Translations under genes and position numbers: made by a program
Part shown: positions 4,785 through 30,298 of the stretch, piece by piece
Layout: each line of letters starts with the position of its first letter
Position numbering within the stretch: position 1 is the first letter of the stretch
Source: Gammaproteobacteria bacterium
GTDB taxonomy: Bacteria; Pseudomonadota; Gammaproteobacteria; Xanthomonadales; SZUA-5
Direction of reading: 5' to 3'
Length of the DNA stretch: 32,729 nt
Assembly: GCA_030430155.1 (NCBI GenBank)
Contig: JAUIFV010000037.1
Coordinates: 1-32,729 of the forward strand
The notes under the pieces: model-generated
What the model saw: only the letters and a program-made list of their open reading frames with translations
What the model was told of the DNA's origin: nothing
Database searches by the model: none

Positions 4785-4822
4785 CCTGGGCCCTGGGCCC
4801 TGGGCCCTGAGCCCTGGGCCCT
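4785..4822. repeat. CCCTGGG heptamer repeat, copy 1
   Basis: About five tandem copies of a CCCTGGG/CCCTGAG heptamer lie between the convergent genes ending at 4750 and 4839. The unit contains the self-complementary GGGCCC, so the tract can fold. The same unit recurs at 5488, 13850, 16764, 16815 and 30249, always between genes. A role as terminator or REP-like element is inferred. Confidence 0.85.
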
Positions 4823-5487: not shown

Positions 5488-5512
5488 CCTGGGCCCTGGG
5501 CCCTGTGCCCTT
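5488..5512. repeat. CCCTGGG heptamer repeat, copy 2
   Basis: Three to four heptamer units sit 5 bp beyond the priA stop codon, between two genes on the minus strand. Translated in the minus frame, the tract yields the GHRAQGPG type of peptide, which creates false N-terminal extensions of the downstream gene. Confidence 0.85.
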
Positions 5513-10087: not shown

Positions 10088-10167
10088 CGTCGAATCGATC
10101 TTAGCGAGCAGATCGCGCCACAGTGATTCTCCGGCGGCCGCAGCAGAACACTCATGAGTTCCGGGCT
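10088..10167 (-). repeat. Inverted partial copy of the 180-bp element at 12233
   Basis: Read on the minus strand, this 80-bp stretch matches the first 82 bp of the element at 12233-12412, including CTGCGGCCGCCGGAGA and GTGGCGCGATCTGCTC and the terminal CTCATGAG motif. The other end of the element is not recognisable here, so it is a half copy or a diverged member. It lies upstream of the monooxygenase gene, in the opposite orientation to the copy inside the decarboxylase-like gene. Confidence 0.75.
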
Positions 10168-10251
10168 AGAGCATGCGCGATCGCGATTCCGCCAGCAGGC
10201 CCGCACGCTTCGGCCATCCCGAGCAGCGATCGTCGCCACTATATTGAGTCG

Positions 10252-11739
10252 ATGCGCGAGAGCCAGCCCAGCATACGAGTACAGGCGTTGATCATCGGCG
10301 CCGGCTTTGCCGGCATCGGCATGGCTCGGCAACTGCAACAGTTGGGAATCGAGAACTTCGTCCTCATCGAGCGCGCCAGCGGACCCGGCGGCGTCTGGGA
10401 AGCCAATCGCTACCCCGGCGCCGCCTGCGACGTTCCCTCCAATCTCTACTCGTTCAGTTTCGCCCCGGCCACGCACTGGTCCAGACGCTACGGACTGCAG
10501 CCGGAGATTCGCACATACCTGGTCGACCAGCTGCACAGGCTGCAGCTTGGTGATCGGGTGCACTTCGACACCGAGATTGTCAGCGCGTGCTGGGATGCCA
10601 ATGACGGCAGCTGGCGGGTGCAGAGCGTGGACGGCCGTATGTGGCAAGCACGAATGCTGATCAGCGCGGTCGGCCAGCTGTCCAATCCGGCGCTGCCGAC
10701 GATCGATGGGCTCGATACCTTCGCCGGTCCCTGCGTGCACTCGGCGCAGTGGCCCGATGATCTGGATCTGCACGGCAAGCGGGTCGCGGTGATTGGCAGC
10801 GGCGCCAGCGCAATCCAGTTCGTACCGGCGATCCTGCCGCAGGTGCAATCGCTGACTTTGTTCCAGCGCTCGCCGCCCTACGTGCTGCCCAAGCCGGATC
10901 AGCCCTACAGCGACGCCAAACGCGCCCGCTACCGACGCTGGCCGTGGCTGCTGCGCCTCAGTCGGCTGGGCCAGTATCTGTCTCACGAGGCGCGTGGGAT
11001 GGTCCTGCTGCACTCGCCGCTGCTGCTGCGCGGCTACCAGTGTTACTTCAATCGCACCTTGCGTCGGGAAATCGCCGATCCTCAGCTGAGAGCCAAGCTG
11101 CAGCCCGGCGAGCGATTGGGCTGCAAGCGGGTGCTGTTCTCCAACGATTGGTACGCGGCGCTGGCCGACGCCAAGACCGAGGTGATCGGCTCGCGCATCC
11201 GTGCCATCGAAGAGCACGCGGTGGTGACTGATGATGGAGTCCAGCACCCGGCCGACGTGCTGATACTCGGCACCGGCTTTCAGGCCACCCGCTTTCTCAC
11301 CCCCATGCAGATCACCGGCAAGGACGGATTGGATCTCAACCAGGCCTGGGACAAGGGTGCGGAGGCCTACTACGGCATGTGCATGCCGGGTTTCCCCAAC
11401 TTCTTCATGCTCTACGGCCCCAACACCAACCTCGGCCACAATTCCATCGTCTACATGCTGGAATCCCAGCTGCGCTATCTGCGCGGCGCGCTCTGCCTGC
11501 TACGCGATCATCCGCAGCGTTCCGTTGAGGTGCGCAACGAGGTTCAAACCGAGTATCAGCAGCGTCTGGAGCAGCGACTGCGTCGCTCGGTTTGGGCCAG
11601 CGGCTGCAGCAGTTGGTATCACGACGAGCACGGGCGTATCACCACCAACTGGCCAGGTTCCACCCTGAGCTACGCCTGGCAAACACGGCGTTTTCTCCCC
11701 CACCACTACAAGCACGTTGATCACGGGCCGCATTCATGA
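10252..11739 (+). CDS. Flavin-containing monooxygenase, Baeyer-Villiger type
   Basis: NAD(P)H- and FAD-dependent oxygenase of 495 residues. It has an FAD-binding GAGFAG (16-21), the BVMO-type GGVWEANRYPGAACD (46-60), the Baeyer-Villiger fingerprint FxGxxxHxxxWP (FAGPCVHSAQWP, 157-168), a second nucleotide-binding GSGASA (182-187) and a late GTGF motif. Such enzymes insert oxygen next to a ketone to form an ester or lactone; the substrate cannot be read from the sequence. The ATG at 10252 begins 13 residues before the first beta strand, as usual. The stop overlaps the ATG of the decarboxylase-like gene (ATGA), so the two are translationally coupled. Confidence 0.93.
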   Translation: MRESQPSIRVQALIIGAGFAGIGMARQLQQLGIENFVLIERASGPGGVWEANRYPGAACDVPSNLYSFSFAPATHWSRRYGLQPEIRTYLVDQLHRLQLGDRVHFDTEIVSACWDANDGSWRVQSVDGRMWQARMLISAVGQLSNPALPTIDGLDTFAGPCVHSAQWPDDLDLHGKRVAVIGSGASAIQFVPAILPQVQSLTLFQRSPPYVLPKPDQPYSDAKRARYRRWPWLLRLSRLGQYLSHEARGMVLLHSPLLLRGYQCYFNRTLRREIADPQLRAKLQPGERLGCKRVLFSNDWYAALADAKTEVIGSRIRAIEEHAVVTDDGVQHPADVLILGTGFQATRFLTPMQITGKDGLDLNQAWDKGAEAYYGMCMPGFPNFFMLYGPNTNLGHNSIVYMLESQLRYLRGALCLLRDHPQRSVEVRNEVQTEYQQRLEQRLRRSVWASGCSSWYHDEHGRITTNWPGSTLSYAWQTRRFLPHHYKHVDHGPHS

Positions 11740-12590
11740 ATCCGGTGGACTACACAGCGTCTTCGGAGTTGACTCCCCCGCCCTGGCAGATGCAGGGGAA
11801 GGGTTGGATCATCGCTGCACATTGGCGTCGGGGCTGGCTGCTGGAACGCGGCTGGATTCCCGCCAATCTGGCCGACCGCTATGTCGGTGGGCCAGGCGCC
11901 ATCATGCTGGTCGACTACCAGCACTGCCCGATCGGCCCCTATCGCGAACTGCTGATGATTCCTGGCCGATTTCGCAGCCCTGCGGGCATTCGCCACAGCA
12001 TCACTCGCATAACGGTTTCCACCCAGATCAGCATCGACAACGGCCGAGCGCACTGGGCCATCCCCAAAACCCTGGGCGACTTCCAGATCGAAGCCACGGC
12101 CCGCGGCGAGCGCTGGCAGATCGCCGAGAATGGCGCCCCGCTGGCGCGATTCGAGCTGCGCGCGCGTGGCCCCAGGCTGCCGGTCAGCACTCGTGTGCTC
12201 CCAGCGGCGCTAGGCACGCTGGCGCAGCCTCTAGCCCGCACGTTTCATGAGTCTTCTACTGCGGCCGCCGGAGAGCCGCCGTGGCGCGATCTGCTCCCTA
12301 CGATCGACTCGACGTACAGGTCAAGTAAGCCTTCATCGATCTCCAGTCCGCGGACCGCACCACGGCAACTCTCCAACGTCCTCGCTACGAACACTCATGA
12401 AACATGCGGGCTTGACCACGGCTGGCTGCTGACCCGCCCCAGCGCCAGCGGTCAAGTGCGTTTGGCTAAGCTGGAGGCGAGTTGGGCCGACCCCGAGCGC
12501 TTCCCGGAACCGGACGGAGGGCGCGTGCTGCTCAGCGTTCAAGTGCCGAGCTTCAATATGCAGTTTCCGCTTGCGCGTATGCTGAGCTGA
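11736..12590 (+). CDS. Acetoacetate decarboxylase-like protein carrying an in-frame repeat insertion
   Basis: A 284-residue protein that overlaps the monooxygenase stop by four bases. Residues 1-165 resemble the acetoacetate decarboxylase family: GPYRELLMIPGRF around Glu71, and AHWAIPKTLGDF with Lys111 where the Schiff-base lysine is expected. Residues about 166-226 come from the 180-bp inverted-repeat element at 12233-12412. Deleting it in silico joins LAQPL directly to DHGWLLTRPSASGQ and leaves a 224-residue protein. The insertion adds exactly 60 codons without a stop, so the frame is intact, but 60 Ser/Pro-rich residues in a compact beta fold may reduce or abolish activity. Family membership is moderately certain. 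Real acetoacetate decarboxylation is not implied. Confidence 0.85.
   Translation: MNPVDYTASSELTPPPWQMQGKGWIIAAHWRRGWLLERGWIPANLADRYVGGPGAIMLVDYQHCPIGPYRELLMIPGRFRSPAGIRHSITRITVSTQISIDNGRAHWAIPKTLGDFQIEATARGERWQIAENGAPLARFELRARGPRLPVSTRVLPAALGTLAQPLARTFHESSTAAAGEPPWRDLLPTIDSTYRSSKPSSISSPRTAPRQLSNVLATNTHETCGLDHGWLLTRPSASGQVRLAKLEASWADPERFPEPDGGRVLLSVQVPSFNMQFPLARMLS
12233..12412 (+). repeat. 180-bp MITE-like element with 24-bp terminal inverted repeats, inside a coding sequence
   Basis: The ends 12233-12256 and 12389-12412 are inverted repeats matching at 22 of 24 positions (outer part AGCCCGCA, inner part GTTTCATGAGT). The interior holds CTGCGGCCGCCGGAGA and GTGGCGCGATCTGCTC, shared with 10088-10167. 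The element is 60 codons long and stop-free in the host frame. No transposase is present, so it would be non-autonomous. A target-site duplication is not clear; at most CT flanks or overlaps each end. Confidence 0.85.
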
Positions 12591-16764: not shown

Positions 16765-16845
16765 GGCCCAGGGCCCAGGGCCCAGAAAAGCGGCATCCGG
16801 CGCGCTCTTGATCCTCTGGGCCCTATGCCCTGAGCCCTGGGCCCT
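16764..16845. repeat. CCCTGGG heptamer repeat, copy 4, inverted pair
   Basis: Left arm 16764-16785 carries the heptamer in the minus orientation and right arm 16815-16845 in the plus orientation, separated by about 30 bp, so the two can form a long stem. It sits between the SRPBCC start codon and the autotransporter terminator. On the minus strand the mRNA leader would be strongly structured just before the SRPBCC start. Confidence 0.8.
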
Positions 16846-16919: not shown

Positions 16920-18659
16920 TTACCAGCCGTAGCCGAAGCCGAGGCCAGCCTGCGCTTCGTCGCTGCTGAAGGCACCGCCGAAGGTCAGGGTCATGTTGTC
17001 GTCGAAGGCGCGCTGATAGCCAATCGACAGCGCCGATTCGCCACCGGCAAAGCCGGCACCGATGGCCAGCCTGTTGTCGGTACGCAGACCGGCGGCACTG
17101 CCGACCATGGTGGTCATCGCTGCGTTCAGCGCGGCCACTTCGTCGATACGCTCATTGGTCTCGCTGAAACGGCGATCGGCGTAGTTCTGCAGGAAGTCGA
17201 TCTCGGTGCGGAACTGACCGAAGTTCACTGCGTCAGTGGCCTGGGTACCGGCCGCAACGTTGGTGATCTGACGCGCGTTGGTGCCCGAGCCCACCGAGAC
17301 AGTATTGGCGCGGTTGGCCACCGAGCCGTTGCCCAGCGCCACGCTGTTCTCGGCGCTGGCGGTGGAGTTGGCACCCACCGCAACGCTGTTGTTGGCGCTG
17401 GCGGTGGAGGCGCGGCCCACCGCGGTGGAGGAGCCGCCGCTGGCGGTGGCGGAGTTGCCGTTGGCCACGCTCAAGCCGCCGCTGGCATCAGCTCGCCAGC
17501 CGGTCGCGGTCGCGCCCAGCCCACCAGCCGAAGCCTGGGTGCCAACCGCGGTGGAATGGAAGCCGGTGGCAGAGGCGGTTTGACCCACGGCCAAGGCGTC
17601 TTCGTCCGACGCCACAGCGCCCTGACCGACCGCGGTGCTGTTCTCGCCGGTCGCCTGCGCGGCGCGGCCGTTGGCCGTGCTGTTGGAGCCGGAGGCATTG
17701 GCGTCGTTACCGGTGGCGGTGGACAGCGAGCCGCTGGCGCTGGCACGCCAACCCACGGCGGTGCCGCCGCGGCCAGCGGCGCTGGCCTGGGTACCGATGG
17801 CGCTGGAGTGGAAGCCGGTGGCCGACGCGGTCTGGCCGACAGCCAGGGCGTCTTCGTCAGAGGCGACCGAGCCCTGGCCAAGTGCGGTGGCATTGGCACC
17901 GGAGGCGGAGGAGCCCTGACCTACCGCAGTGGAGTTGGCACCCGAAGCGGTTGCGGCGCGGCCGTTGGCCGTGCTGTTGTCGCCGGAGGCATTGGCATCG
18001 TTGCCGGTAGCGGTGGACAGTGCGCCGGTGGCCTGGGCACGCCAGCCCAGCGCGGTACCACCACGCCCGGAGGCGTTGGCCTGCGCGCCGACTGCGGTGG
18101 AATGGAAGCCGGTGGCGGTTGCGGTCTGACCAAAGGCGGTGGCGTCCTCATCGGTGGCACGGCTGCCCTGGCCGACTGCGCTGGCGTTGGCACCAGTGGC
18201 CTGAGCGTCCTGACCCACGGCGGTGGTGTTGTCGCCGGTCGCGGTGGCCGCACGGCCATTGGCGGTGCTGTTGGCACCGGAGGCTACGGCGTTGTTACCG
18301 GTCGCGGTGGAGAGATCGCCGCTGGCGTTGGCACGCCAACCCAGCGCGGTGCCGCCACGGCCCTCGGACGCGGCCTGTGTGCCCAGCGCGGTGGAGTGGA
18401 AGCCGGCCGCGTTGGAAAGATGACCGAAGGCAGCGGAGTCTTCGTCAGTCGCGCGGGAGCTGGTGCCCACGGCGGTGCTGTTCAGACCGCTGGCCACGGC
18501 GCTGCGGCCGCAGGACAGGGCATTGGCGGGTGTCGCGCTGGTTCCGGGCAGCTGCTCGCAGCGATCGCCCGCCCACAAATTGCCGCTCAGCGCCAAAGTC
18601 AGACCAATGATCAGCGGTGATTGCCGAAATAGCTTGCTACCACTCGGGAACGTCGTCAT
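16920..18659 (-). CDS. YadA-like trimeric autotransporter adhesin
   Basis: A 579-residue outer-membrane adhesin. It has a signal peptide (residues 1-30, ending NLWAGD), a head of 14-residue YadA/Hep_Hag-type repeats (about 52-450, pattern xxAxGxxSTAxGxx), the neck SVGSGTNARQITNVAAGT (455-472) and a short coiled stretch (FRTEIDFLQNYADRRFSETN). The C-terminal membrane anchor (about 510-579, MTTMVGSAAGLRTDNRLAIG onward) ends in an aromatic residue (GYGW). The head repeats are organised in larger modules starting at residues 69, 167, 265 and 349. There is almost no stalk. ATG 18659 has GGAG eight bases upstream. Monocistronic, with its own terminator. It probably mediates attachment or autoagglutination (from the family). 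Confidence 0.95.
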   Translation of the reverse strand: MTTFPSGSKLFRQSPLIIGLTLALSGNLWAGDRCEQLPGTSATPANALSCGRSAVASGLNSTAVGTSSRATDEDSAAFGHLSNAAGFHSTALGTQAASEGRGGTALGWRANASGDLSTATGNNAVASGANSTANGRAATATGDNTTAVGQDAQATGANASAVGQGSRATDEDATAFGQTATATGFHSTAVGAQANASGRGGTALGWRAQATGALSTATGNDANASGDNSTANGRAATASGANSTAVGQGSSASGANATALGQGSVASDEDALAVGQTASATGFHSSAIGTQASAAGRGGTAVGWRASASGSLSTATGNDANASGSNSTANGRAAQATGENSTAVGQGAVASDEDALAVGQTASATGFHSTAVGTQASAGGLGATATGWRADASGGLSVANGNSATASGGSSTAVGRASTASANNSVAVGANSTASAENSVALGNGSVANRANTVSVGSGTNARQITNVAAGTQATDAVNFGQFRTEIDFLQNYADRRFSETNERIDEVAALNAAMTTMVGSAAGLRTDNRLAIGAGFAGGESALSIGYQRAFDDNMTLTFGGAFSSDEAQAGLGFGYGW

Positions 18660-30019: not shown

Positions 30020-30298
30020 GCCGGACCTCAGGGTCCGGCACCGCTGACCACCACCGAAGTCGACGGCTACGGAACCGTATTCGCGCATCAGCGAGTCTTC
30101 GGCGTAGGCGATTGCATATATTGCCTACGCGCGCCCTCACACCCGACCGGCCCGAATCGGCCGGATCGCATCGACGCGCCCATACGAGGCATCCGATCGC
30201 TTGCAAGCGAGCTCCCACACGTAACGGCGATGCCGCGACGTTTCGCCGCTGGGCCCTGAGCCCTTTGCCCTGGGCCCTTGCACCAGGAGCAGGCTCCT
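30020..30298. repeat. Cluster of hairpins and REP-like elements in a 429-bp intergenic region
   Basis: The region 29894-30322 has no supported gene. It holds a series of stem-loops: GCCGGACC/GGTCCGGC (30020-30039), GTAGGC/GCCTAC around an AT-rich loop (30104-30128), the perfect palindrome TCGCTTGCAAGCGA (30197-30210), the heptamer repeat copy 6 (30249-30279) and AGGAGC/GCTCCT (30285-30298), which shares GCAGGCTCCTAC with the REP-like pair at 27303. It lies upstream of the secreted-protein gene and downstream of the aminotransferase gene. Confidence 0.75.
30249..30279. repeat. CCCTGGG heptamer repeat, copy 6
   Basis: Four units (CCCTGGG, CCCTGAG, CCCTTTG variants) lie 44 bp beyond the stop of the aminotransferase gene, which reads on the minus strand. 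The orientation is the same as copies 1 and 2 (plus strand). Confidence 0.85.

Follow-up and report, generated by a model that had tools for sequence, protein, structure and literature searches.

In-Frame Insertion of a YTAR-Targeting MITE in a Decarboxylase-Like Gene of a Lysobacterales Genome

The best-known miniature inverted-repeat transposable elements (MITEs) inserted in frame in coding sequences are those of Rickettsia, Neisseria, and enterobacteria, according to the available text of two accounts (PMC2229807, PMC10969869). The Rickettsia palindromic elements (RPEs) are described there as small palindromic repeats with an open frame, present in genes of unrelated proteins and in intergenic regions, and the available text of PMC2229807 states that their target duplication is unknown. 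In the same text, the 107-bp Correia/NEMIS and the ERIC elements appear as MITEs with terminal inverted repeats (TIRs), an open-frame version of which is fused in genes, and the Correia version carrying stop codons is almost exclusively intergenic. Two elements of other Gammaproteobacteria, MITEAba12 and QMITE1, can likewise overlap or fuse with genes, as indicated in the available parts of their descriptions (PMC6382973; PMC5896051). Here, we describe a MITE family of a Lysobacterales genome that joins the in-frame coding MITEs; its target rule can be stated, a transposase family is probable for it, and it shows signs of having been active recently. Our literature search yielded no published description of this family, which is no proof of absence. 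Like the RPEs, to which it was compared by description, it is found in frame in protein genes, and it acts like an RPE. It differs from them in its Lysobacterales host, in the definite YTAR duplication, and in having a transposase family that is probable, and we do not class it as an RPE. Correia/NEMIS and ERIC elements are described with TA at their termini (PMC2229807, available text), whereas the present family has YTAR targets and IS1380-type ends. In MITEAba12, each of the six frames has two or more stops according to the available text (PMC6382973), unlike in the present element, and the duplication lengths of MITEAba12 and QMITE1 differ too.

The window analyzed is a 32,729-nucleotide stretch of contig JAUIFV010000037.1, and its features are listed in table 1. 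The first-pass annotation had reported a 180-bp inverted-repeat element inside a gene at positions 12233–12412. The element is real: its inverted arms, of 27 nt each and spaced by 132 nt, are complementary at 24 positions (89%), and the single-stranded DNA fold of this stretch reaches −44.9 kcal/mol, as compared with −26.5 (sd 3.1) in shuffled sequences (z −6.0); none of 200 shuffles folded as well. Its length also stood, the net insert being 180 bp or 60 codons once CTAG and CTTG are assigned as the two target copies, but its coordinates had to be shifted. We found the end word at two sites in the window, where shuffles predict 0.25; 5 of 100 shuffles also reached two. A truncated second copy of the MITE lies at 10088–10169 on the minus strand, upstream of a flavin monooxygenase-like gene; it comprises 70 bp at 88.6% identity and an end closing in GGGCTAG. 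An Rfam match of the element to MIR3454 (32.1 bits for a gathering threshold of 142) was ascribed to the palindrome and rejected, and neither the element peptide nor the host protein had a match in PHROGs.

Table 1. Features of the insertion site in the window, and family copies located at stop codons
Feature	Position	Strand	Basis or remark
Host ORF of 284 aa with weak similarity to acetoacetate decarboxylase; the 60-residue addition follows residue 165 or 166	11736..12590	+	ORF, Pfam, homologues
MITE copy with both target copies	12231..12414	+	Net insert 180 bp, in the single open frame of the family consensus
Left target copy CTAG (YTAR)	12231..12234	.	Sequence
Right target copy CTTG, one base different from the left copy	12411..12414	.	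Sequence
Left inverted arm	12230..12256	+	Inverted-repeat search
Right inverted arm	12389..12415	-	Inverted-repeat search
Stop-codon copies L002, L007, L008, L009, L010, L019, L027, L030, L053			PhoB, NAD-binding, RdgB, PurD, PIN, MAPEG, DnaG, RuvA, fatty acid hydroxylase

Since the net insert is divisible by three, the frame stayed open and the host ORF passes through the element without any stop. Removing the element leaves 224 residues with the junction LAQPL-DHGWLLTRP, the continuous protein that had been predicted, as the ORF and the target copies confirm. The label given to the gene stood only in part: the acetoacetate decarboxylase profile PF06314 does match, with an E value of 3.2e-4 and 20.7 bits, under its curated cut-off of 29.8. 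The description of the element as read as protein appears sound at the level of the sequence, that is, of the open 284-aa frame; the fusion would be translated with 60 additional residues.

We searched 61 genomes, the genome itself and 60 relatives, for the host protein and obtained matches in six. Beyond the own genome, the host protein itself is matched only in G001, of the same genus (64% overall identity), and in G058, from a different family of the order (38%); the matches in the remaining genomes are at or near the element part. Both homologues are devoid of the 60 residues, as the junction alignment illustrates: LAQP-LDHG-WLLT in the window with the element removed, LAQP-SGDR-WLLT in G001, and LAQP-NGAE-LLLT in G058. 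In the genome_contigs collection, the whole host protein had no confirmed relative. The two verifications proposed with the first-pass annotation, on homologues lacking residues 166–226 and on further genomic copies of the 180 bp, thus both came out in its favor, with the insert absent from the two homologues found and at least 40 additional copies in the own genome. Given these copies elsewhere and these insert-free homologues, the probability that these residues have long belonged to the protein family, with no insertion involved, is practically nil.

A more serious alternative is that the fused gene is a decaying pseudogene whose open frame is coincidental and due to a recent insertion. The window copy differs from the family consensus by only 12 substitutions, which is compatible with a recent event, and 60 residues inserted in a small domain may well harm it. 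Against this, the flanks are free of stops and frameshifts, and the dN/dS of the N-terminal part of the protein relative to G001 is 0.23, a ratio that mostly reflects the time before the insertion. For the C-terminal part, dS relative to G001 is saturated and yields no ratio; this part is also less conserved between the insert-free homologues of G001 and G058 (18/59 identical residues vs. 64/156). We regard a pseudogene as less probable than not, while giving it appreciable weight. With a profile built from the three homologues, no solved structure was retrieved at E values up to 0.1, and an AlphaFold model from the single sequence was useless (mean pLDDT 35.6).

In the 5.06 Mb of the own genome (287 contigs), the MITE occupies at least 41 places, over at least 128 bases and with 76–100% identity; this is a minimum, as 40 of 185 first-look candidates were scored. 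The 21-base end gave 97 matches with up to three mismatches and none in a reversed control. Forty of the 41 places were aligned with a consensus, and 38 of these are untruncated, the other two being shortened by contig ends; the 41st place, beside another copy in contig C176, was examined apart. At that locus (L093, 4447–5126), three family members stand in a row in the same orientation, and the middle one, of the window subfamily, abuts one of its neighbors. The net length is exactly 180 bp in half of the copies (19/38). Identical YTAR sequences flank 14 of the 38 untruncated copies, three of these sequences being non-palindromic. Recent activity of the family is suggested by two copies, the full-length L002 and the truncated L028, whose aligned parts match the consensus without any mismatch. 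The family thus combines TIRs, target duplications, many short copies without a transposase gene, and empty sites, the latter in the decarboxylase-like gene (G001 and G058) and in an M14 peptidase gene (G001). The earlier designation as MITE-like can be narrowed accordingly to a YTAR-targeting MITE whose ends match those of an IS1380-family element of a related genome. A search with the core pattern of the element returned two contigs, both from one Lysobacterales MAG, and nothing among viral contigs. With a looser end pattern, we observed on one contig classed as viral (L107, 801–1044; IMGVR_UViG_3300015264_000082) a 244-bp element with the exact ends CTAGCCCGCATTATTCATGA on both sides.

The end pattern is present in 15 of 299 genomes of the order, with 91 occurrences in the same-family genome G006, and the spacing of paired ends varies by genome (about 252 bp in G006, 167 bp in G103). 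In G006, an IS1380 transposase gene (NF033539, 397 bits for a cut-off of 180) is located between ends showing one and three mismatches in 16 positions, flanked on both sides by TTAG. The ends of this IS1380 element, which has a TTAG/TTAG duplication, match those of the MITE, which itself, unlike IS1380 elements, encodes no transposase. On this ground, the MITE was likely moved by IS1380-type transposition into YTAR targets. Eukaryotic piggyBac elements, for which IS1380 serves as outgroup, target TTAA and sometimes CTAA or TTAG (PMC10813416, available text); for IS1247, an IS1380-family member, the part of PMC3281130 that covers it gives a 5-bp duplication, versus 4 bp here. PF13701 was found in four of 14 end-bearing genomes, and among 11 PF13701 matches fetched from related genomes, only that of G006 (L138) had a matching end pair in the fetched flanks. 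Another, in G032 (L139), had a single end with two mismatches, and the full-length PF13701 genes of G103 had no matching ends in the fetched flanks, though this genome contains 29 exact ends. We detected no autonomous partner in the own genome: no PF13701, PF01609, or PF13546 gene is present in the assembly, a fragmented MAG in which a copy may have collapsed, and PF13546 had no match across nine genomes. IS1182 (NF033551) was considered as another candidate and rejected: its model matched only sub-cut-off fragments in four of 10 genomes, the own genome contributing three fragments, and the best end-like word near any fragment has four mismatches.

In our opinion, the 180-bp sequence is with high probability a non-autonomous DNA transposon, a MITE, most likely mobilized in trans by an IS1380-type transposase into a 4-bp YTAR target, the frame staying open with 60 residues added. 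The one-base difference between the two target copies at the window site counts against this explanation. The putative transposase would have moved the window copy in trans into a CTAG, the CTA of which encoded leucine in the decarboxylase-like gene. The insertion has the only orientation and phase that keep the element free of stop codons, and the protein would have gained 60 residues.

Only one of the six frames of the family consensus is open, the forward frame CTA-GCC-CGC of 60 codons. Because TAR is a stop codon, a YTAR inside a gene can be read only as YTA-R or NYT-AR; these two phases and the two orientations give four configurations, of which one is readable. Most MITE copies lie outside genes. 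Among the 38 copies, two clear and two probable ones are in frame, all in this same open frame. The clear cases are the window copy and that of an alpha/beta hydrolase gene in C211 (L050), and the probable ones concern the signal peptides of two proteins, the M14 peptidase (C16) and a protein without Pfam match (C6), the latter signal peptide being putative. The M14 peptidase has an orthologue in G001, 81% identical over query residues 61–468 and also without the insert, with the junction MVARLIAAALLLSG versus MVRQL-(60 residues)-VSVLLLAAC in the own genome. For the hydrolase, an empty site is indicated by the Pfam domain, which begins at residue 110, directly after the element at 51–107; the best other match to the enzyme part, in G003, reaches 48% over about 105 residues. 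These natural insertion variants of the decarboxylase-like protein, of the hydrolase, and probably of two signal peptides offer tests of the tolerance of proteins to 60 foreign residues.

The target rule, the probable transposase family, and the apparent recent activity make it possible to compare the numbers of readable and unreadable insertions with target availability. We applied a simple codon-usage gene caller to 131.6 kb of the own genome, consisting of the window and 18 stretches each chosen for holding an element, and left out the YTAR sites within the elements themselves. This yielded 85 intergenic sites, 26 sites at stop codons, and 41 and 37 sites in genes according to phase. For 38 insertions, 4.1 readable in-gene copies are expected from this availability and four are observed. 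Conversely, 11.6 unreadable in-gene copies are expected versus one observed (P(≤1) = 2e-5; P(≤3) = 9e-4), namely L011, in an ORF whose halves have no Pfam match. The in-gene count rests on judgement, and anciently broken genes would escape it: the two signal-peptide copies were added by inspection, their upstream parts being too short for a coding score, and three copies with a coding score on one side only (L054, L055, and L056) were left out. When, more strictly, a coding score is required of both flanks, only three copies are retained, two readable and one unreadable, and the difference is not significant (P = 0.17). We infer that unreadable in-gene insertions were removed by selection. Twenty further copies, mainly of a related subfamily, contain at least one stop in the frame that is open in the consensus, and none of them lies in a gene with a coding score on both sides, a situation paralleled by the contrast between the 107-bp and 155-bp Correia elements in the available text of PMC2229807.

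The consensus has one open 60-codon frame and a net length divisible by three, as would be expected of a selfish coding module whose frame is kept open by selection for life in genes and whose peptide is shared by several proteins. Similarly, the hydrolase copy L050 is open despite 24 substitutions, while other copies with at least 17 substitutions are not. However, in the 40 copies, substitutions are distributed over the three codon positions as 144, 157, and 157, and the synonymous, nonsynonymous, and nonsense changes number 143, 304, and 11 versus 136, 307, and 11.1 expected; in addition, the majority of copies sit outside genes. A selfish coding module is therefore very improbable. The open frame belongs to the consensus without being preserved copy by copy, and it shows no coding selection across the family. 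It is conceivable, although we consider it unlikely, that the YTAR target rule and the reading frame fit together, the open frame having been shaped by selection among master copies and not on each copy. If so, master copies in the YTA-R frame, with a length divisible by three, could spread through genes at little cost and add 60-residue inserts to several proteins.

Eleven of the 38 copies sit in a target whose TAR serves as stop codon to an ORF with a coding score, and nine of these ORFs have a Pfam or NCBIfam match (table 1). The stop codon is retained after insertion through the target duplication. A preference for stop codons was considered and rejected: outside genes, 10 of 33 copies occupy such sites compared with 26 of 111 YTAR sites (P = 0.23), near the expectation from availability. 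One insertion in C16 touches two ORFs at once, overlapping the stop of the upstream one and codon 5 of the M14 gene, and leaves both frames open.

The window contains other repeats. Heptad arrays of the CCTGGGC type, which form a separate repeat family, are located at 4785–4820, 5488–5509, 16765–16786, 16815–16843, and 30248–30276, and an array of this type is also present in the left flank of element copy L006. At 17367–18500, a long coding region includes tandem repeats of about 294 bp, in four copies with 65–100% identity to the reference copy.
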